Shown: one piece after another, positions 5,725 to 27,575 of the stretch | How positions within the stretch are numbered: the first letter of the stretch is position 1 | Layout of the letters: each line of letters starts with the position of its first letter | Assembly (NCBI RefSeq): GCF_000429945.1 | Contig: NZ_AUCV01000043.1 | Span: 1-54,311, forward strand | Length of the DNA stretch: 54,311 nucleotides | DNA from: Desulfogranum japonicum DSM 18378 | Lineage (GTDB): Bacteria; Desulfobacterota; Desulfobulbia; Desulfobulbales; Desulfobulbaceae | Direction of reading: 5' to 3' | Program-made: the position numbers and the translations under genes | Notes under the pieces: generated by a model | The model's input: the letters and a program-made list of their open reading frames with translations, nothing else | Database searches by the model: none | What the model was told of the DNA's origin: nothing

Positions 5725-6660
5725 ATGTCCATAGAAACATACATAGAAAATTTTCACGGACTGAAGGTTAAAGAATACAATCCCAAGGAAGAATTGGCAG
5801 ATGCAGAAGAATACGCATGGAGACTGTCGATCAGCTGGGAGGAAGCCGAAAAACAGAACTTGAAAATTTCCCAGAAATTTGCTCCCCTGTTTAATGATCC
5901 TGCTGTGCAACAGATACAGGCGCTGGTTATCGGTCCGTGGGGGGAAGAGTGGGAAGAAAACCCCCAGGAGGTCATCAATCTGCTGATTAAAAACAAAGAG
6001 GCCTTAAAGGCACTCAAGGCGCTCTTCGTAGGTGACATCACATATGAAGACTGTGAGATGTCTTGGATTCAACAGGGAGACTATAGCGAACTGCTTAAAG
6101 CCTATCCCGGCCTTGAGGAGTTGAGAATTCGCGGCGCAGCCATACGGCTTGGAAACGCTGGACATGCCGGCTTGAAGAAACTGATCGTTGAGTCTGGCGG
6201 ATTGAGCAGTACGGTACCTCATGATATATGTACCAGTACTTTTCCGGAACTCACCCACCTTGAACTGTGGCTTGGTGTTGAAGAGTACGGCTTTGACGGC
6301 AGTATGGAGACCATCAAAAAATGTGTTGCAGCTTTCTCATCTGGAAAATTAACCTATCTTGGCCTGAAAAATAGCGAAATTGTCGATGACATTGCAAAAT
6401 TTCTGGCAGATCATGACATCTTGAGCACGCTTGATGTTCTTGACCTCTCCCTTGGAACTCTGACAGACGAAGGTGCTCAGGCGTTGCTGGACTCAAAAAA
6501 AATACGGTCACTGAAACAGCTGATTTTAAGGCACCACTATATGAGCAAGGGAATGTGCAAAAAGTTAGCTTCCTTGCCCGTTGACTGCGACTGTTCAGCC
6601 CCACAGGAAGCAGAAGAGTATGATGGAGAAATTTACAGGACGGTTTTTGTCTCTGAATAA
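5725..6660 (+). CDS. STM4015-family leucine-rich-repeat protein
   Basis: A 311-residue soluble acidic protein. The middle and C-terminal parts carry leucine-rich repeat units (YPGLEELRI, FPELTHLELWLG, LTYLGLKNSEI, LDVLDLSLGTLTDEGAQALL, LKQLILRHHYMS). By length, repeat pattern and position before an STM4014-like gene it fits the STM4015 family, which has no assigned function; LRR folds usually mediate protein-protein contact. First gene of a six-gene operon; the next gene starts 2 nt after its stop. A role as scaffold or substrate-recognition subunit is only inferred from the fold. Confidence 0.82.
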   Translation: MSIETYIENFHGLKVKEYNPKEELADAEEYAWRLSISWEEAEKQNLKISQKFAPLFNDPAVQQIQALVIGPWGEEWEENPQEVINLLIKNKEALKALKALFVGDITYEDCEMSWIQQGDYSELLKAYPGLEELRIRGAAIRLGNAGHAGLKKLIVESGGLSSTVPHDICTSTFPELTHLELWLGVEEYGFDGSMETIKKCVAAFSSGKLTYLGLKNSEIVDDIAKFLADHDILSTLDVLDLSLGTLTDEGAQALLDSKKIRSLKQLILRHHYMSKGMCKKLASLPVDCDCSAPQEAEEYDGEIYRTVFVSE

Positions 6661-6662
6661 GC

Positions 6663-7835
6663 ATGAAATTTTTGATTATTGGAGATCCTTTTCATATCAG
6701 GGTCAAACGATTTATGCGGGCCCTGCAGGCTAAGGGCGTTGAGGGGAAGGTCATTTCACATATTGACCTTCTCACAGATACGGTTTACCTGCCAGACCAG
6801 CTTTCCCCGGATACAACCATCCGTATCGAAACCGCCGGTGAAAATTTCCCGGTTGAAAAAGAGCTGATCCGATTAGGTGCAAGGATTCTTCACCAAGGCG
6901 AACTGGTCACAGATATTGACCGAATGCGATTTGAGATGGGGAAAATAACCTATCCTAGCTTGTGGTATACCGGATGGTGCCGTTATTTGAACGGGATTGG
7001 GAAACAAGTGGCTCAAAGCCGAGCACGATATATGAATGATCCGAGCGATATCATGTTAATGTTTGATAAATGCTCGGTTCACAGGCTTTTCTCCAACGCC
7101 GGAATTCCCGTGGCCAAAGACCTGTCACCCAATGAACCGGTGAAAAGTTTTGACCATCTTGTTGCACTGATGACCCAGACACGTATTTTTCGCGTATTCA
7201 TCAAGCTAAGGTACGGTTCCGGTGCTATGGGAATCGTGGCGTTCAGCAAGCACCCTTCGTTGAATCTCTTTTCGGCCATGACAACTTTGGAACTTGTTAG
7301 AACCAAAGGAAAAGTGGAACTGTACAATACCAAAACGTTTTTCACCTATCGCCGACAAAGCGATATCCGCTCCATAGTTGACCTGCTGTGCCAAGAAGGC
7401 GTGCACGTGGAGCAGTGGATACCTAAAGCTTATGCCGACGGCGGCCCCTTTGACATCCGACAGGTTGTTATCGGCGGAAAAGCGACTCACAAAATAGCGC
7501 GTATCGGACGTGGACCATTTACAAATCTACACCTGCGAAACAGACGAAAACAGATTGATTCTTCCTGGATGAGCGATTCGCTTATCAAAAAGGTTGAACA
7601 TATCTCAGAAGCGACCTGCGCACTTTTTAAAGGCTCCTTTTATGCAGGAGTCGACATCCTCATTCCCCGTGGATCTGGAAATCCCCGTGTGCTTGAGATT
7701 AACGCCTTTGGCGATTTTGTGAACCAGGCGTTTTTCCAGGGCAAAGATCCATATGCTCTGGAAGTGGAACGCTGGCTTGCTACCTGCCGGACAGAGCAAC
7801 GCCCTTCATATCAGCATGAAACTGTTGCTCTTTGA
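6663..7835 (+). CDS. STM4014-family ATP-grasp protein
   Basis: A 390-residue soluble protein with ATP-grasp organisation: an N-terminal pre-ATP-grasp part (MKFLIIGDPFHIRVKRF), a central nucleotide-binding part (MLMFDKCSVHRLFSNAGIPVAK and FIKLRYGSGAMGIVAF) and a C-terminal metal-binding strand VLEINAFGDFVNQ. ATP-grasp enzymes activate a carboxylate as acyl-phosphate and couple it to an amine or thiol. The STM4014 family is uncharacterised. The start lies 2 nt after the previous stop and the 3' end overlaps the HAD gene by 20 bp, so these are translated from one message. Substrate unknown. Confidence 0.85.
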   Translation: MKFLIIGDPFHIRVKRFMRALQAKGVEGKVISHIDLLTDTVYLPDQLSPDTTIRIETAGENFPVEKELIRLGARILHQGELVTDIDRMRFEMGKITYPSLWYTGWCRYLNGIGKQVAQSRARYMNDPSDIMLMFDKCSVHRLFSNAGIPVAKDLSPNEPVKSFDHLVALMTQTRIFRVFIKLRYGSGAMGIVAFSKHPSLNLFSAMTTLELVRTKGKVELYNTKTFFTYRRQSDIRSIVDLLCQEGVHVEQWIPKAYADGGPFDIRQVVIGGKATHKIARIGRGPFTNLHLRNRRKQIDSSWMSDSLIKKVEHISEATCALFKGSFYAGVDILIPRGSGNPRVLEINAFGDFVNQAFFQGKDPYALEVERWLATCRTEQRPSYQHETVAL

Positions 7836-8460
7836 TCTGGACAACACCTTGATTGACCGGAATCATGCGTTCCTATGCAGGCTTCGTCAATGGGTTCTAA
7901 ACCATGCAGGTGAGCTGGATGATTACGAACAGACTCGCTTGATACAACAGCTTGTCGAACTCGATGACCGTGGCCAGACTGAACGTAGAGTTTTTTACAG
8001 GAAGGCCGCAGCCAATATTCCTCTGGACAGAGCCAAGATCTCCACATTAAACAAAGAAATTGGATGTTTGGCGGAAAATATCCAACCCGACAGAGAAATA
8101 CATGCCATGTTGAAACGGCTGTCCGGACACTTTAAACTGGGTATCATTTCCAATGGACCGGGAAAGGTACAGCGTAAAAAAATAGATCAAGCCCAATTAT
8201 GGGCCTATTTTACGCACTGCTTTATTTCAGGTGACCTGGGGTACGGCAAACCTTCCCCCCGTATTTTTAGAACAGCTTTAAAGGCATTTTCCTGTTCACC
8301 GGATCAGGCCATGATGATCGGAGATGACCCCATAAAGGATATCGATCCTGCACATCTTCTCGGTATGAAAACCGCTTTGGTATCACCCCTGTCAGAAACG
8401 CATTGTAATGCTGATATTTGTCTGCGATGTATTACTGATATTGAAAAAAACGTATTATGA
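7816..8460 (+). CDS. HAD-superfamily hydrolase (phosphatase-like)
   Basis: 214 residues. Motif I is FDLDNTLIDR with nucleophile Asp7 and Asp9. Motif II is the Ser in GIISNGPG, motif III the Lys near KVQRKKIDQ/GYGKPSP, and motif IV MIGDDPIKDIDPA. An alpha-helical C1 cap lies between motifs I and II, as in haloacid dehalogenase-like phosphatases. The ATG at 7816 places the motif right at the N-terminus; an upstream ATG at 7753 in the same frame would add residues with no family match. It overlaps the ATP-grasp gene by 20 bp and the next gene by ATGA. Likely removes phosphate from an intermediate of the pathway; substrate unknown. Confidence 0.85.
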   Translation: MKLLLFDLDNTLIDRNHAFLCRLRQWVLNHAGELDDYEQTRLIQQLVELDDRGQTERRVFYRKAAANIPLDRAKISTLNKEIGCLAENIQPDREIHAMLKRLSGHFKLGIISNGPGKVQRKKIDQAQLWAYFTHCFISGDLGYGKPSPRIFRTALKAFSCSPDQAMMIGDDPIKDIDPAHLLGMKTALVSPLSETHCNADICLRCITDIEKNVL

Positions 8461-9320
8461 CACAGCTTACAACAACGCTTGATGTAAACATGAACAGGAT
8501 TGTCGGAAAAGACGACATCCTGTTCATCACCTTTGATACCTTACGATACGATGTTGCAACGGAAGAGTGGTTATCTGGCGGCACCCCTAATCTAAGAAAA
8601 ATGATGCCTGAAAACTGGGAAAAACGGCATGCACCCGGAAATTTTACATGGGCGTCCCATCATGCTTTTTTTGGAGGTTTTCTACCGACACCTGTTGTTC
8701 CTGGACCTCATGAACGCTACTTTGCTGCTGCCTTTCCCGGCAGCGAAACCACCGGGACAAACACCTATTCCTTTGAGGCGGCAGATATCGTCACCGGATT
8801 AAAAAAACTGGGGTATCACACTGCCTGTATCGGAGGTGTAGGCTTTTTCAACAAAAAAACCCCGATGACCTCGGTATTTCCCGACCTGTTTACTGAAAGT
8901 CACTGGGAAGAATCCACAGGGGTCACTGATCCTGATTCGACTAAAAACCAAATAGATATCGCCGTTGAGATCATCCGTAACCAGAGTGAAAAACGCAAAG
9001 GTCAGCCTTTATTTCTCTTTCTTAACATAGCTGCCATTCACCAACCTAACTACATGTATGCTAAAGGGGAAACCAAAGATTCTAAAAAGACTCATGCCGC
9101 GGCACTTCGCTATGTAGACAGTCAGCTGCCAAAACTTTTCGACGCACTTTCCATGCGGGGAAATCCGTTCTGCATTTTATGTTCGGATCATGGCACAACC
9201 TATGGCGAAGATGGTTACAGAGGACATCGTTTGTGCCATGAACAGGTATGGACAGTACCCTTTGCAGCATTCTCTTTGAAAAATACGTTTCCAATCAACA
9301 AGCCAAACCATGAAAACTGA
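8457..9320 (+). CDS. STM4013/SEN3800-family sulfatase-like hydrolase
   Basis: 287 residues of the alkaline phosphatase/sulfatase fold. Metal ligands are seen as Asp27 (LFITFDTLRYD) and Asp244-His245 (CSDHGTTYGEDG) with His257. The nucleophile position falls in NFTWASHHAFF (Thr64/Ser67). The Cys/Ser-x-Pro-x-Arg sulfatase signature is absent, so a classic formylglycine sulfatase is unlikely; phosphodiesterase or phosphotransferase chemistry is possible. No signal peptide, hence cytoplasmic. The start codon overlaps the preceding stop (ATGA) and the 3' end overlaps the next gene by 11 bp, fixing it in the operon. Confidence 0.85.
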   Translation: MTQLTTTLDVNMNRIVGKDDILFITFDTLRYDVATEEWLSGGTPNLRKMMPENWEKRHAPGNFTWASHHAFFGGFLPTPVVPGPHERYFAAAFPGSETTGTNTYSFEAADIVTGLKKLGYHTACIGGVGFFNKKTPMTSVFPDLFTESHWEESTGVTDPDSTKNQIDIAVEIIRNQSEKRKGQPLFLFLNIAAIHQPNYMYAKGETKDSKKTHAAALRYVDSQLPKLFDALSMRGNPFCILCSDHGTTYGEDGYRGHRLCHEQVWTVPFAAFSLKNTFPINKPNHEN

Positions 9321-10641
9321 TCAGCAGCATCCTGTTTTCGGAAACCTGGATGTATCAACGCCCTACTCAGCGTATATGTACTCGTATCCGCATAAGACAT
9401 CATACCGCACATTTACCTCCCCTCTCAACCTGTCTGATTTATGGGCAAAAGAAGACAGGTCATCCCTTTTCTTCTATGCCCATATTCCTTTTTGTCAAAG
9501 TAAATGCGGATACTGCAATCTGTTTTCCATGGCAAAAGCAAGTGAAGAGCTGATGGAGCGCTATGTTGACACCCTGGAAAGACAGGCTTTAGCAGCACGC
9601 TATTTCTTAGGAAAATTTTGCGGAACACAATTTGCCATCGGCGGCGGAACTCCGAGCGTTATCTCTCTTGAGCAGCTGGATCGAATCATGGAGATCTTTT
9701 TCAATATTTTAGGTATTTCACAAGAGGCTCCGGGGTCACTGGAAATTTCCCCTGTGGCCATCAGCAAGGACAAATTGTCCCTTCTCAAACAGCGGGGCAT
9801 CAACCGAATCAGTGTAGGTATTCAGAGTTTTATTCAAAAAGAGTTGCAGGTCCTTAGCCGGGGAACACACGTAAAGGATGTGACAGACGGCCTTGATATC
9901 CTCACACAGCTTGAGTTTCCGGTGACCAATCTGGATTTGATTTACGGCATTCCAGGACAAACCCCGCAGACTCTAACCGAATCACTGAAAACCGCACTCG
10001 CATTTGATCCTGAAGAAATTTTTCTATATCCACTGTATATCAGAGAGCTAACCCCACTTGCAGGAAAACCCATCAACGAAAACACCATGATACTTTATCA
10101 GGTTGGCAGAGACCTGTTACTTGCCCATGGATATGTGCAGGATTCCATGCGCATGTTCAGAAAAGCAGAGAAAGGTAACAATAACACCAGTACCGATTAT
10201 TGCTGTCAGGAAGATGGTATGATCGGTCTTGGAACAGGTGCTCGCTCATACACCCGATCCGTCCATTATGCCACACCATATGCCGTAGAACCTAAGGAAG
10301 TCAAACGCCTTATCGAGTCATACACTAATCTTCCCGATGCTGCATTCAACCAGGCAGAACACGGCATTATACTGTCTTTGGAAGAGCAAAAACGCCGCTA
10401 TCTGATTAAATCCATTCTCAAGTGTCGGGGCTTGAAAAAACAGGTGTATTCTGATTATTTTGGCAGCGACTGCGAATCTGATTTTCCAGAAATAAGTATA
10501 CTTTCAGAACTCGGCATGCTCTGTTCTTCAGACAGCCATATCCGGCTAAGGGAAAAAGGGATTATGTATTCAGACGTCATCGGCCCTTTTTTTATTTCTC
10601 CAGCTATTCGTAAGCGCATGGAAACTTTTACTCTGGGATAA
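9310..10641 (+). CDS. STM4012-family radical SAM protein (HemW-like)
   Basis: 443 residues. The [4Fe-4S] motif CxxxCxxC is Cys62, Cys66, Cys69 in IPFCQSKCGYCNLF. Downstream are the HemN/HemW-like elements IGGGTPS, SLEISP and GINRISVGIQSF, and a C-terminal winged-helix-like region (EEQKRRYLIKSILKC). It belongs to the coproporphyrinogen-dehydrogenase-like radical SAM branch, but in the STM401x context it is not expected to make heme. Such enzymes use a 5'-deoxyadenosyl radical for oxidation, methylation or cyclisation. Next gene starts 6 nt downstream. Product unknown. Confidence 0.87.
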   Translation: MKTDQQHPVFGNLDVSTPYSAYMYSYPHKTSYRTFTSPLNLSDLWAKEDRSSLFFYAHIPFCQSKCGYCNLFSMAKASEELMERYVDTLERQALAARYFLGKFCGTQFAIGGGTPSVISLEQLDRIMEIFFNILGISQEAPGSLEISPVAISKDKLSLLKQRGINRISVGIQSFIQKELQVLSRGTHVKDVTDGLDILTQLEFPVTNLDLIYGIPGQTPQTLTESLKTALAFDPEEIFLYPLYIRELTPLAGKPINENTMILYQVGRDLLLAHGYVQDSMRMFRKAEKGNNNTSTDYCCQEDGMIGLGTGARSYTRSVHYATPYAVEPKEVKRLIESYTNLPDAAFNQAEHGIILSLEEQKRRYLIKSILKCRGLKKQVYSDYFGSDCESDFPEISILSELGMLCSSDSHIRLREKGIMYSDVIGPFFISPAIRKRMETFTLG

Positions 10642-10647
10642 GTCTTC

Positions 10648-11514
10648 ATGGAGTTTACAATATTGTACAGAGGATCACTTAAAAGCTGTAATTTCCACTG
10701 TGCGTACTGTCCTTTTGCCTGGAAAAAAATTGTCCATCAGGATCTTGAGACCGACAAGGCCGGAATAAGTCGATTTATTGAGTTTATAGAAAATTCGCAG
10801 CACCACTACCGCATACTGTTCACTCCCTATGGCGAGGCAATGATTCATGCATACTACAGAGAAGCAATGGTCAGGCTTTCCAAACTGCCAAATGTCATTA
10901 AAGTGGCGGTACAGACCAACGGATCATTTTCAGTAACTGCCGATGACTGGTTGGACAGAATTGCCGCAGACACGGCTGCATTCTGGTTGAGTTTTCATCC
11001 GGAGCAGATATCATTAGAGCAGTTTACCAATCAGTACCAGGCGCTTTTGGATAGAAATCTTCGATTCAGTTGCGGAGTTGTTGGAATCAAAACGAATATT
11101 CCAACCATCAGGCAATTGAGAGCAACCCTGCCCCAATTTGTCTACATGTGGATCAATGCCTATAAACGGTGGCACGGTTATTATACAGACAAGGAGATTG
11201 AAGAACTGGTTTTGCTTGACCCACTTTTTAACAATAACCTGCACTATTATCCGTCCCGTGGGCATATCTGCCGGACCGGCCAGGAGATATTTTCCGTAGA
11301 TGAAAAAGGAGATATACGGCGATGCCATTTTGTTGATACAATCATAGGCAATATCTCAGAAAACGATATGGCTAATCTGCACTGTTCACCGCACTGCCCG
11401 AACGACACCTGCCATTGCCATATCGGCTACATCTACCTTCCTGAACTGCATCAGCATTCCATCTACGGCGATGGAATGTTAGAACGGATTCCTTGTCAAT
11501 ATAAAATGGGGTGA
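10648..11514 (+). CDS. STM4011-family radical SAM protein
   Basis: 288 residues. The radical SAM cluster motif sits at the very N-terminus: Cys14, Cys18, Cys21 (SLKSCNFHCAYCPFAW). A second cysteine set near the C-terminus (GHICRTGQ, RRCHFV, CSPHCPNDTCHC) looks like an auxiliary cluster or SPASM-like region, typical of enzymes acting on peptides or large substrates. Last gene of the operon. No peptide precursor gene with conserved features was found next to it, so whether the substrate is a peptide is open. Confidence 0.86.
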   Translation: MEFTILYRGSLKSCNFHCAYCPFAWKKIVHQDLETDKAGISRFIEFIENSQHHYRILFTPYGEAMIHAYYREAMVRLSKLPNVIKVAVQTNGSFSVTADDWLDRIAADTAAFWLSFHPEQISLEQFTNQYQALLDRNLRFSCGVVGIKTNIPTIRQLRATLPQFVYMWINAYKRWHGYYTDKEIEELVLLDPLFNNNLHYYPSRGHICRTGQEIFSVDEKGDIRRCHFVDTIIGNISENDMANLHCSPHCPNDTCHCHIGYIYLPELHQHSIYGDGMLERIPCQYKMG

Positions 11515-13246: not shown

Positions 13247-13604
13247 CAAGCCAGTGCACTCGGACGGGTGAGACAGGTGCGGTTCTCGTTTGGGTTTCTA
13301 CGAGGCCGTCCCGTCACCGCCGGTGACCAGCACATTAGTCGACAGGCGAAGCTTGGCGCTTCCTTGCAGGGTGACCTGTTGTATAAAGCAGGAAGTCCCT
13401 GTCAGGCAAAGCCTAACCAGCAGCCCGCACCGAGTGTTGCGCGACTCGCGAAGCCATTTTTGGCGAACAAAAGTCATGAAGCGTACACAGAAAAACCGTA
13501 GGCCGCAGGGGAGACATACCTCCCTCAAGCAATTCAGCCTCATCAGGGTAAAATGCAGTTGGCGACGATTTTAGCGTATCGGAAGCCAGAACAAAGGAAT
13601 AGAA
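13247..13604 (+). mobile_element. Probable 5' part of a decayed group II intron
   Basis: No coherent reading frame. The stretch is rich in short stems (for example GTCACCGCCGGTGAC near 13313-13327, and AGGCGAAGCTTGGCGCTT near 13343) and GC-richer than its neighbours. It directly precedes a maturase fragment and a domain V, so it probably derives from intron domains I-III and the deleted 5' part of the reverse transcriptase. Exact 5' boundary not determined. Confidence 0.45.
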
Positions 13605-13880
13605 ATGGCAAGATTCCGGAGGGACTGCCTGGGTCATAGAGCGCGGCACGCAGTGAAAGAAGTGCCAGGAACCCGTCATGGAGCGATTTGCGGCAAAACT
13701 CCAAGGGCACTCTACAATTATTATGGTGTCAGTGGAAACTTTGAGAAGATCAGTTCTTTCTACAATTACAGTTGCAAAACTGTATTTACGTGGCTGAACA
13801 GGAAAAGACAGCAGAAAAGCTGTAATTGGCGAGGGTTTGAGGGGCTTTTACAGACTTTCTCAATTCCTCGTCCCGGATAA
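13605..13880 (+). pseudogene. Group II intron reverse transcriptase/maturase, C-terminal remnant
   Basis: 91 codons whose second half reads LYNYYGVSGN, FYNYSCKTVFTWLNRKRQQKS, then NWRGFEGLLQTFSIPRP. This is the group II intron maturase (GIIM) signature, normally the last ~80 residues of a ~420-residue protein. All reverse transcriptase motifs (YADD etc.) are missing, so it is an inactive internal-deletion relic. A domain V follows 49 bp downstream at the position expected in an intact intron. Same strand as the surrounding cassette-like genes. Confidence 0.82.
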
Positions 13881-18262: not shown

Positions 18263-18277
18263 TCTTAATGAATACTT

Positions 18278-18349
18278 GAGCCGTATGCTGGGAAACTCGC
18301 AAGTACGGTTTTGAAGGGGGAAGGAGATCGTACGGCCTCCGACCTACCC
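18278..18349 (+). mobile_element. Group II intron domain V-VI (3' end), relic 2
   Basis: GAGCCGTATGCTGG, loop GAAA-like, CTCGCAAGTACGGTTTT is an almost canonical domain V hairpin (AGC triad at 18279-18281). It is followed by GGGGGAAGGAG...GCCTCCGACCTACCC, a domain VI stem with the typical intron 3' end. No intron protein is nearby. It is nearly identical in plan to 27505-27575. It ends ~40 nt before the start codon of the next gene. Confidence 0.78.
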
Positions 18350-18390
18350 GGTAGCTTTGAAAGAAAAAATTACTCATTGACGAAAGCAAA

Positions 18391-19469: not shown

Positions 19470-19960
19470 AATCGGGTAGCCAGGGGAATCACTCCCCTAG
19501 CCCCGATACAACCTAGTATGCGGGTGGACCCGCACTTGGCGGTCCCAAAGGAAATCGGACCGTAGTCGGATGAAAAATATCAGCAGCTTTTTGACAGCGA
19601 GAAGACAGCAACTGCAAAATATACCTGAAAGCGCGCTGGTTCTTACCTCACGACTTCCTACGCTTAACATGACCTCTGCTGACTCCTGCCCGATACCCCT
19701 GCATGTTGCCTGCACGGCGCTGCCAAAGCAGCCACAGCTTGTCGGGCAGTTCTCCCCGGATAAGAACGTGATCTATCACGATGCGACCGCTGCATTTATG
19801 TATCTCCCAAACCCAAGGCGTTGTCATGTTGCGCTGACTCACATGGAGATTCGACCTTGTATGCCGTTTCTGTTCGTTGTCCATAATTTTGGAATCTCGT
19901 ACCTCGCTTCCATGTAATGTGCCGAGCCAATCTATAATCACCGAAGATATGGAATCCCCG
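19470..19960 (-). mobile_element. Group II intron relic 3 (minus strand, internally deleted)
   Basis: On the minus strand, GGGACCGCCAAGTGCGGGTC / CCCGCATACTAGGTTGTA (about 19508-19548) is a domain V of the AACCGCC...GGTGGTG type. A stem GGGGCTAGGGGAG/CTCCCCTGGCTACCCGATT (19471-19505) follows as domain VI and the 3' end. Upstream (minus) text such as GCAGGAGTCAGCAGAGGTCATG resembles intron sequence near the 5' region. The reverse transcriptase is missing, and short frames here (19497-19941) look like shadows of RNA sequence. Confidence 0.65.
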
Positions 19961-27245: not shown

Positions 27246-27575
27246 CCGATTTTCAAGTTCCTGGAATCGACAACGAGGCAAATCGAGCAGTTGTGAACTT
27301 GCCGCGGGCTTGTTCACCTCGCTTCTCAGAGTGGTTATTTGCACCGCGAAGTCACTTTGCCGATAAGTTACCTGTTTTCGTGGAAACCCGGTATTCCGCC
27401 ACTGGCAACCCACGGAGGCATGCTGCCGTTACGCTGATGACTGGGTGTGAACCCCTCCTGGCAGTGTATGGAGGATCGGGACATGAAGCGTGAGTTGAAT
27501 GTTTGAGCAGTATGCTGGGATACTCGCAAATACGCTTTTAAGGGGAAGGAAGCTGTAAGGCCTCCGACCTATCTC
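27246..27575 (+). mobile_element. Group II intron relic 5 (3' end, domain V-VI at 27505-27575)
   Basis: GAGCAGTATGCTGGGATACTCGCAAATACGCTTTT at 27505 is a mutated domain V (a base change disrupts one pair compared with relic 2). It is followed by GGGGAAGGAAG...GGCCTCCGACCTATC as domain VI. The preceding 27246-27504 has no coherent gene and is probably intron debris. The relic ends ~25 nt before the start codon at 27601. Confidence 0.65.

Follow-up and report, generated by a model that had tools for sequence, protein, structure and literature searches.

Among the described systems closest to the operon presented here are ATP-grasp ligases acting on the C-termini of partner proteins. According to one report, the gamma-carboxyl group of the C-terminal glutamate of LysW, a small zinc-binding protein with EDWGE at its end, is the site to which LysX couples its substrate, and the E54A substitution in ArgW results in arginine auxotrophy (PMC10433800); according to another, RimK extends the C-terminus of RpsF with glutamate residues (PMC10092738). 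We analyzed a stretch of 54,311 nucleotides, the window, from Desulfogranum japonicum DSM 18378 (contig NZ_AUCV01000043.1; genome size 5.8 Mb). It contains a six-gene operon of the STM4011-STM4015 type (positions 5725-11514, + strand), in which an ATP-grasp ligase, STM4014, adjoins a leucine-rich-repeat (LRR) protein, STM4015, that ends in glutamate. We propose, with a probability of about one half, that the operon chemically modifies the C-terminus of its own LRR protein, because a near-invariant terminal glutamate, the fold of the ligase and the pairing of STM4015 with STM4014 converge on this explanation.

The six genes form a single run in the order STM4015, STM4014, HAD, STM4013, STM4012 and STM4011, and their successive junctions are a 2-base gap, overlaps of 20, 4 and 11 bases, and a 6-base gap. 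All five STM families exceed their curated NCBIfam cut-offs in the window (bits/cut-off: STM4015, 316.7/275; STM4014, 341.3/175; STM4013, 397.2/250; STM4012, 529.6/380; STM4011, 340.5/200). The order 4015-4014-4013-4012-4011, kept here on one strand with touching genes and a HAD between 4014 and 4013, is identical to that of the five STM genes in the annotated Salmonella record. An initial annotation, made from the sequence alone, had recognized such an operon with a HAD gene, described the set as conserved in distant bacteria and attributed no known product to it. The operon is as described, its genes are widely annotated in bacteria, its relatives occur in distant phyla, and the literature searched yielded no product. 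We found no paper on the function of STM4011-STM4015, on the domain combinations, on DUF6745 or on the solved STM4015 relative 2ra8, in a search whose coverage excludes bioRxiv and most subscription journals. The sole paper found to name STM4013 lists, in its accessible part, a sigma-54 site there (PMC3844500), and the accessible text of two papers on other ATP-grasp systems contains none of the terms leucine, LRR, phosphatase or sulfatase (PMC4431377, PMC8939145).

The terminal glutamate of STM4015

A scan of genome contigs for STM4013 recovered at least 576 relatives among at least 591 matched stretches. The best 80 loci were kept and, together with the window and seven plasmid loci, make up a set of 88 loci. 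STM4015 of the window (5725..6660, + strand; NCBIfam NF038076) is an LRR protein of 311 amino acids and the proposed substrate or carrier; its last seven codons (6637..6657, + strand) encode the tail RTVFVSE, with Glu311 as the final residue. The last residue is exactly Glu in 124 of the 130 STM4015 open reading frames (ORFs) of the 88 loci, the six exceptions lying in L048, L051, L054, L088, L092 and L117, with that of L051 being a 48-bit LRR-like ORF. STM4015 ORFs are present in 79 of these loci, and each of the 79 has at least one copy ending in Glu. Terminal Glu was likewise found in 67 of 72 STM4015 proteins of a second, partly overlapping set obtained by further genome searches. In the pooled sets, with proteins sharing their last 120 residues counted once, it is present in 165 of 172, many of which come from related species. 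The E. coli protein ends in NPMFTE. In the 88 loci, the final residue varies in each of the other four operon proteins.

The terminal glutamate belongs to a tail resembling R-Y-x-A-V-x-E that lies behind a hypervariable linker. Among the 172 proteins, Val occupies position -3 in 150, Tyr or Phe position -6 in 158 (Tyr in 142) and Arg position -7 in 139; Gly directly precedes Glu in 62. With all copies counted and the last residue left out, the identity between loci (744 pairs) is 50% in the tail (-7 to -2), 46% in the LRR body and 16% in the intervening 20 residues. Past a linker of almost random sequence there is thus a segment whose conservation equals that of the folded body. The corresponding values between copies in one locus are 59%, 57% and 14%. 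Two to six STM4015 copies are found in 30 of the 88 loci, and nearly all of them carry the tail. The largest array, six tandem copies before STM4014, all ending in Glu, is that of Actinomadura rifamycini (L087, 1092-6884). Three Nostoc loci (L056, 621-4510; L059; L060) encode, between the LRR genes, proteins with a PREFDAVLGGE-type N-terminal stretch, which in L056 is borne by a WD40-repeat protein; one STM4015-family protein of the Nostoc loci has a weak HEAT-like match at its N-terminus.

The AlphaFold2 model of the window STM4015 is a compact LRR fold with a mean predicted local distance difference test score (pLDDT) of 94.5. The closest solved structure is 2ra8 (34% identity, E 2.8e-82), a Bacteroides fragilis protein (Q64V53) named 'uncharacterized protein'. 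Its aligned part ends in ITE at residue 354 of 362, and the residues past this point are presumably a purification tag. The LRR protein is likely the substrate or carrier by way of its C-terminal Glu, a role that the initial annotation had missed.

STM4014 and its coupling to STM4015

STM4014 of the window (6663..7835, + strand; NF038074) is the ATP-grasp ligase proposed to act on the C-terminus of STM4015. Its model (mean pLDDT 93.7) is matched best, by both Foldseek and VIA-align 2, to ArgX with LysW (3vpb; Z 24.7, 272 aligned residues, 2.6 A), followed by RimK (Z 24.2) and by LysX/ArgX with LysW-gamma-AAA (Z 23.9). The first nine entries among 999 realigned PDB chains are all ArgX, LysX or RimK, with Z values of 22.9-24.7. 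The sequence profile also ranks RimK (E 7.6e-4) and LysX (E 1.6e-3) first, and aligns an Asn-Leu-His and a Glu-Val-Asn-Ala stretch with RimK.

The operon thus shares with the LysW-LysX/ArgX system an ATP-grasp ligase beside a protein with a C-terminal Glu. The partner differs, being a 311-residue LRR protein ending in RTVFVSE rather than a small zinc-binding protein ending in EDWGE, and the LysW system holds other lysine or arginine enzymes where the operon has radical SAM enzymes. The likeness to RimK and ribosomal protein S6 (RpsF) lies in a ligase of similar fold, which in the case of RimK acts on a protein C-terminus, whereas STM4014 adjoins an LRR partner and further modifying enzymes and scores under the RimK cut-off.

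The two genes are closely coupled. STM4015 lies directly upstream of STM4014 in 74 of the 78 loci holding both STM4014 and STM4013, a count that leaves out the 10 of 88 loci without one of them; the misses are L044, L051, L094 and L096, the last of which is clipped at the locus end. In six loci STM4014 is on the strand opposite to STM4013, and STM4015 still directly precedes STM4014 in five of the six. The HAD stays with STM4013 in five of these strand-split loci (L053, L086, L096, L116 and L117), and L074 is without a HAD. In Myxococcota, STM4015-like proteins (E up to 1e-40) are found in 50 of 146 genomes, centre genome included, none of them over the curated cut-off. We compared these 50 with 20 of the 96 genomes without such a match. 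In 49 of the 50, STM4014 and STM4013 both exceed their cut-offs, some of these genomes carrying them on separate contigs; this holds for none of the 20. Strand splits and co-presence in Myxococcota suggest that the operon consists of two units, STM4015-STM4014 and (HAD-)STM4013-STM4012-STM4011, which seem separable yet kept together.

The set is rare in several of the draws of genomes made per phylum, all of which include a centre genome that was itself picked for carrying the operon. In the phylum of the window, STM4013 exceeds its cut-off in 1 of 395 genomes, which is the genome of the window. Apart from the centre genome, STM4015 searches returned 0 of 397 genomes in Pseudomonadota, 1 of 295 in Bacteroidota and 2 of 148 in Actinomycetota, and an STM4013 search in Planctomycetota returned 4 of 198 genomes with the set, one of the four with a HAD. 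The operon stretch occurs in 154 of 5,426 complete E. coli genomes. The nearest STM4013 to that of the window among the tree rows is from a Desulfobacterales metagenome-assembled genome (MAG; L039, 63% identity), in a quick tree with 19 of 84 inner branches starred and 31 open.

Phosphatase-type and radical SAM enzymes, and the flanking genes

The HAD gene of the window (7816..8460, + strand) encodes a HAD-IA hydrolase, a probable phosphatase (Pfam HAD_2, 3.5e-23), in which motif I FDxDxT is present as FDLDNT. We set its start at the Met codon at 7816, the onset of the HAD domain; the mechanical ORF begins at 7753. The protein exceeds the generic HAD-IA cut-offs TIGR01549 and TIGR01509 and, among the best 25 of 36 NCBIfam matches, no equivalog cut-off. 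The initial annotation had described the HAD as an extra gene added to the set. Such a HAD is not exceptional, since homologues of it immediately precede STM4013 in 19 of the 80 genome loci and in seven phyla: Thermodesulfobacteriota (1/1), Pseudomonadota (5/6), Verrucomicrobiota (2/2), Bacteroidota (3/4), Lentisphaerota (1/1), Planctomycetota (4/7) and Myxococcota (3/7). These counts lean to the kin of the window, the 80 loci being the best matches of at least 576, and two loci (L064, L115) are clipped too near the upstream side of STM4013 to reveal a HAD. In 19 of 20 HAD loci, the frames of the HAD and of the longest STM4013 ORF overlap; in the other (L078) the two are about 350 bases apart. 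In a second set, a HAD is present in all 30 Myxococcota STM4013 loci considered, which are related to one another and have the best scores among 49.

A different HAD, of Cof-type IIB, overlaps the end of STM4011 in Salmonella, and the arrangement in E. coli MCJCHV-1 is alike; the set thus occurs with a HAD-IA before STM4013 in the window and other loci, and with a HAD-IIB after STM4011 in Salmonella and E. coli. All 154 E. coli carriers hold at least 80% of a query ending with the HAD, and the 10 matches listed all cover 100% of it and name the HAD. The view that the Salmonella HAD-IIB is a mere bystander is weakened by this coverage. A megablast search with the Salmonella DNA matched 94 E. 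coli genomes; the eight matches listed cover only 3%, in the HAD. In Bacteroides finegoldii (L038) the C-terminus of STM4011 carries a fused HAD-IIB; the operon there is incomplete, with STM4012 missing and STM4013 reduced to a fragment. In many lineages the HAD belongs regularly to the operon, and the joining of two HAD subfamilies to the same enzymes argues for a phosphatase step in the putative pathway.

STM4013 (8457..9320, + strand; NF038075) belongs to the alkaline-phosphatase superfamily. An alternative start at 8490 is possible, as the NCBIfam match begins at residue 12. Thr64, Asp27, His195, Asp244 and His245 are invariant in all 42 aligned rows, and the nucleophile region reads GNFTWASH (residues 61-68). 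Formylglycine-type sulfatases carry a Cys/Ser-x-Pro-x-Arg nucleophile motif, which is absent from STM4013. The 'sulfatase-like' label of the initial annotation therefore holds at the level of the superfamily only, the place of the sulfatase motif being taken by the invariant Thr64. Sulfatases occupy the top rows of the profile search and align elsewhere in the chain. The Thr64 region is aligned to the SLTFPNH stretch of the nucleotide pyrophosphatase 2gsn, the Thr of which is the nucleophile; this match is weak (whole-sequence E 1.5e-5), with no single stretch significant. From its sequence, STM4013 looks like a phosphoryl-transfer enzyme with a Thr nucleophile rather than a typical sulfatase. 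Distant STM4013-like enzymes of the window's phylum (L179, 7732-8610; L180, 8208-9032) have FTYPSH or YTLPAH at the Thr position and lie among genes that, as read from translations only, are apparent glycosyltransferase and surface-polysaccharide genes. A Streptomyces albidoflavus plasmid (L037, 5878-9327) carries consecutive genes for a radical SAM protein, a thymidylate-kinase-like protein, an unknown protein, an STM4013-family hydrolase and a NUDIX hydrolase, with no LRR or ATP-grasp genes listed. In a Myxococcales MAG (L072, 3-3829), a fusion of ATP sulfurylase and APS kinase lies between STM4011 and STM4013, and STM4012 was not found in the locus.

The last two genes of the operon encode radical SAM proteins. 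STM4012 (9310..10641, + strand; NF006067) is HemN-like, with a CxxxCxxC motif at residues 62-69 whose Cys62, Cys66 and Cys69 are invariant in six rows; its nearest solved relatives are HemN (1olt) and the methyltransferase NocN. STM4011 (10648..11514, + strand; NF038073) has a Cys-rich C-terminal region resembling SPASM/twitch domains. Invariant in all seven rows are Cys14, Cys18, Cys21, Cys208, Gly221, Cys226, Cys250, Cys255 and Cys257, that is, a CxxxCxxC motif, a Cys208-X12-Gly221-X4-Cys226 motif and three more cysteines. The SPASM/twitch auxiliary motif is C-X9-15-G-X4-C alongside CxxxCxxC, and STM4011 fits this pattern. The Pfam SPASM model does not match the window STM4011 at 0.01, and the L038 protein gives a sub-threshold score (18.3/21.5 bits). 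The sole solved relative of STM4011 at E 0.01 is the peptide maturase SkfB (E 1.5e-4), matched via the C-terminal part. The likeness to SkfB and other SPASM/twitch maturases consists in the radical SAM Cys triad and the auxiliary-cluster-like Cys pattern, and the difference in the lack of any short precursor peptide found at the operon.

The precursor peptide for which the initial annotation had proposed surveying gene neighbourhoods did not emerge from the 151 flanks, which hold 574 ORFs of 18-110 codons: every cluster listed unites close relatives only, in a search that would miss shorter or very divergent peptides. We also clustered ORFs of at least 40 amino acids in the 88 loci and, setting shadow frames among the larger clusters aside by eye, saw no family within or adjacent to the operon across phyla beyond the five genes and the HAD. 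The other larger clusters are shadow frames or Actinomycetota synteny, and no exporter or protease recurring across phyla was seen in the cluster table.

ABC ATPases are found in 15 of the 88 loci, some outside Actinomycetota. Ten loci, all of Actinomycetota (L058, L076, L082, L087, L094, L099, L100, L104, L106 and L111), have genes for an NlpA-type binding protein and a permease close to the operon, and at least L100 also has a NIL-domain ABC ATPase; these genes probably encode a methionine importer beside SAM-using enzymes, or reflect mere synteny. In three of the seven plasmid loci, not generally, the operon has as neighbours a gene for a DUF6745 protein and one for a conserved protein that is 98-108 amino acids long (L032, 3174-4638; L033, 4522-5847; L035, 11040-12361; on plasmids of Streptomyces, Methylobacterium and Deinococcus, respectively). 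A defence system was considered and dismissed, PADLOC giving weak matches only (viperin, PDC-M51A, LmuA and a generic hydrolase model). One scan with a single STM4011 protein, reaching close relatives only, found no viral copies. No Rfam family was detected inside or just upstream of the operon. Four matches to group II intron parts lie downstream of it in the window (13392-13643, +; 18276-18352, +; 19773-19891, -; 27387-27522, +), so that group II introns or fragments of them are present there. Promoter-like sites number 12, as chance would predict (12.7 expected), and terminator-like sites exceed expectation (14 versus 6.2), most of them lying inside genes.

Proposed modification of the LRR protein and competing explanations

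In the proposed mechanism, STM4014 would activate the C-terminal Glu of STM4015 and join an amine-bearing substrate to it. STM4011 and STM4012 would then alter the attached group or the tail, and STM4013, with its Thr nucleophile, and the HAD phosphatase would remove or move a phosphoryl group on an intermediate. The product would probably remain cytosolic or attached to the LRR protein, because we saw no exporter, peptidase or short precursor gene recurring across phyla. The STM4014 step at the Glu of STM4015 is well motivated; the later steps are guesses from family membership. The odds we give to this mechanism follow from the terminal Glu, its contrast with the linker and the ligase fold.

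Several observations weigh against it. Seven of the 172 pooled STM4015 proteins lack the terminal Glu, and outside this count a 48-bit LRR-like ORF beside STM4014 in L051 ends in Gly. The conservation of the tail is hardly above that of the body. The tail is also not clearly free, because in the window model residues 301-310 have a mean pLDDT of 89 and only Glu311 is low (57). The fold of STM4014 does not fix its reaction, since glutathione synthetase (Z 22.6) and DcsG (Z 22.3) rank barely behind RimK, ArgX and LysX, and Foldseek also places the graspetide ligase PsnB in its first rows. STM4014 scores far below the NCBIfam cut-offs of RimK (28.9/143.4 bits), LysX (16.5/275.6) and MptN (29.9/350); our claim is for this reason that it works like RimK, LysX and ArgX, not that it is a member of those families. 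By eye, no recurrent peptidase that would release a product was seen across the 88 loci. Homologues of the window HAD are absent from Actinomycetota (0/35), Cyanobacteriota (0/8), Chloroflexota (0/7), Acidobacteriota (0/1), Melainabacteria (0/1) and the plasmid loci (0/7), and their absence from these lineages argues against a constant need for the HAD in the operon. The phosphorylated intermediate hinted at in the initial annotation is favored by the HAD before STM4013, the HAD-IIB after STM4011 and the Thr nucleophile of STM4013, and disfavored by the many operons without a HAD. The association of the HAD with the operon, likewise raised there, is borne out in 19 of the 80 genome loci and in the second-set Myxococcota and fails in the 35 Actinomycetota loci.

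The conserved tail could instead be a docking or recognition element, with STM4015 scaffolding the enzymes while a small molecule is made from free intermediates. We regard this as possible, if on the unlikely side. LRR folds usually bind proteins, the STM4015 model is a compact LRR fold, a docking peptide would also give a conserved C-terminus, and two phosphatase-type enzymes suit a small phosphorylated metabolite. Docking does not, however, itself predict a C-terminal Glu, the residue used by the closest structural relatives of the ligase, and the occurrence of two to six copies in 30 loci, nearly all of them tailed, suits several substrates better than one scaffold. An improbable alternative is that the tail of STM4015 serves as the core of a ribosomally synthesized and post-translationally modified peptide, in which the ATP-grasp enzyme forms a lactone or lactam or a radical SAM enzyme crosslinks Tyr before the modified segment is released as a peptide or cofactor, in the manner of the graspetide, pyrroloquinoline quinone and mycofactocin pathways. 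The C-X12-G-X4-C motif of STM4011 after the triad, its SkfB match, the presence of PsnB among the fold matches of STM4014 and the Tyr at position -6 in most tails would fit such a route. Yet Gly before Glu in 62 of the 172 proteins means no fixed hydroxyl or amine acceptor there, a protease or exporter recurring across phyla was not seen, and the LRR body is itself well conserved. The version of the initial annotation, an orphan natural-product operon with a separate, unrecognized precursor peptide and a phosphorylated intermediate, appears still less probable. The enzyme set does resemble peptide-modifying clusters and HADs recur; the short ORFs of the flanks, however, formed clusters of close relatives only, and the larger ORFs, clustered and inspected by eye, gave no further in-operon family across phyla.

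New in this analysis are the near-constant terminal Glu of STM4015, the likeness of the STM4014 fold to that of ArgX with LysW, and the pairing of STM4015 with STM4014. The terminal Glu and the ArgX/RimK-like ligase narrow a previously unguided problem to the last residues of STM4015. If the operon does modify its own LRR protein, the list of proteins known to receive additions at a C-terminal Glu would extend to LRR proteins, and this chemistry would be tied to two radical SAM enzymes. A bolder and doubtful extension is that the LRR families, with up to six copies per operon, share one prosthetic group built by radical SAM enzymes on the C-terminal Glu, the LRR surface picking the target and the tail doing the chemistry. 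If true, a shared prosthetic group on LRR tails would be a new kind of post-translational modification.

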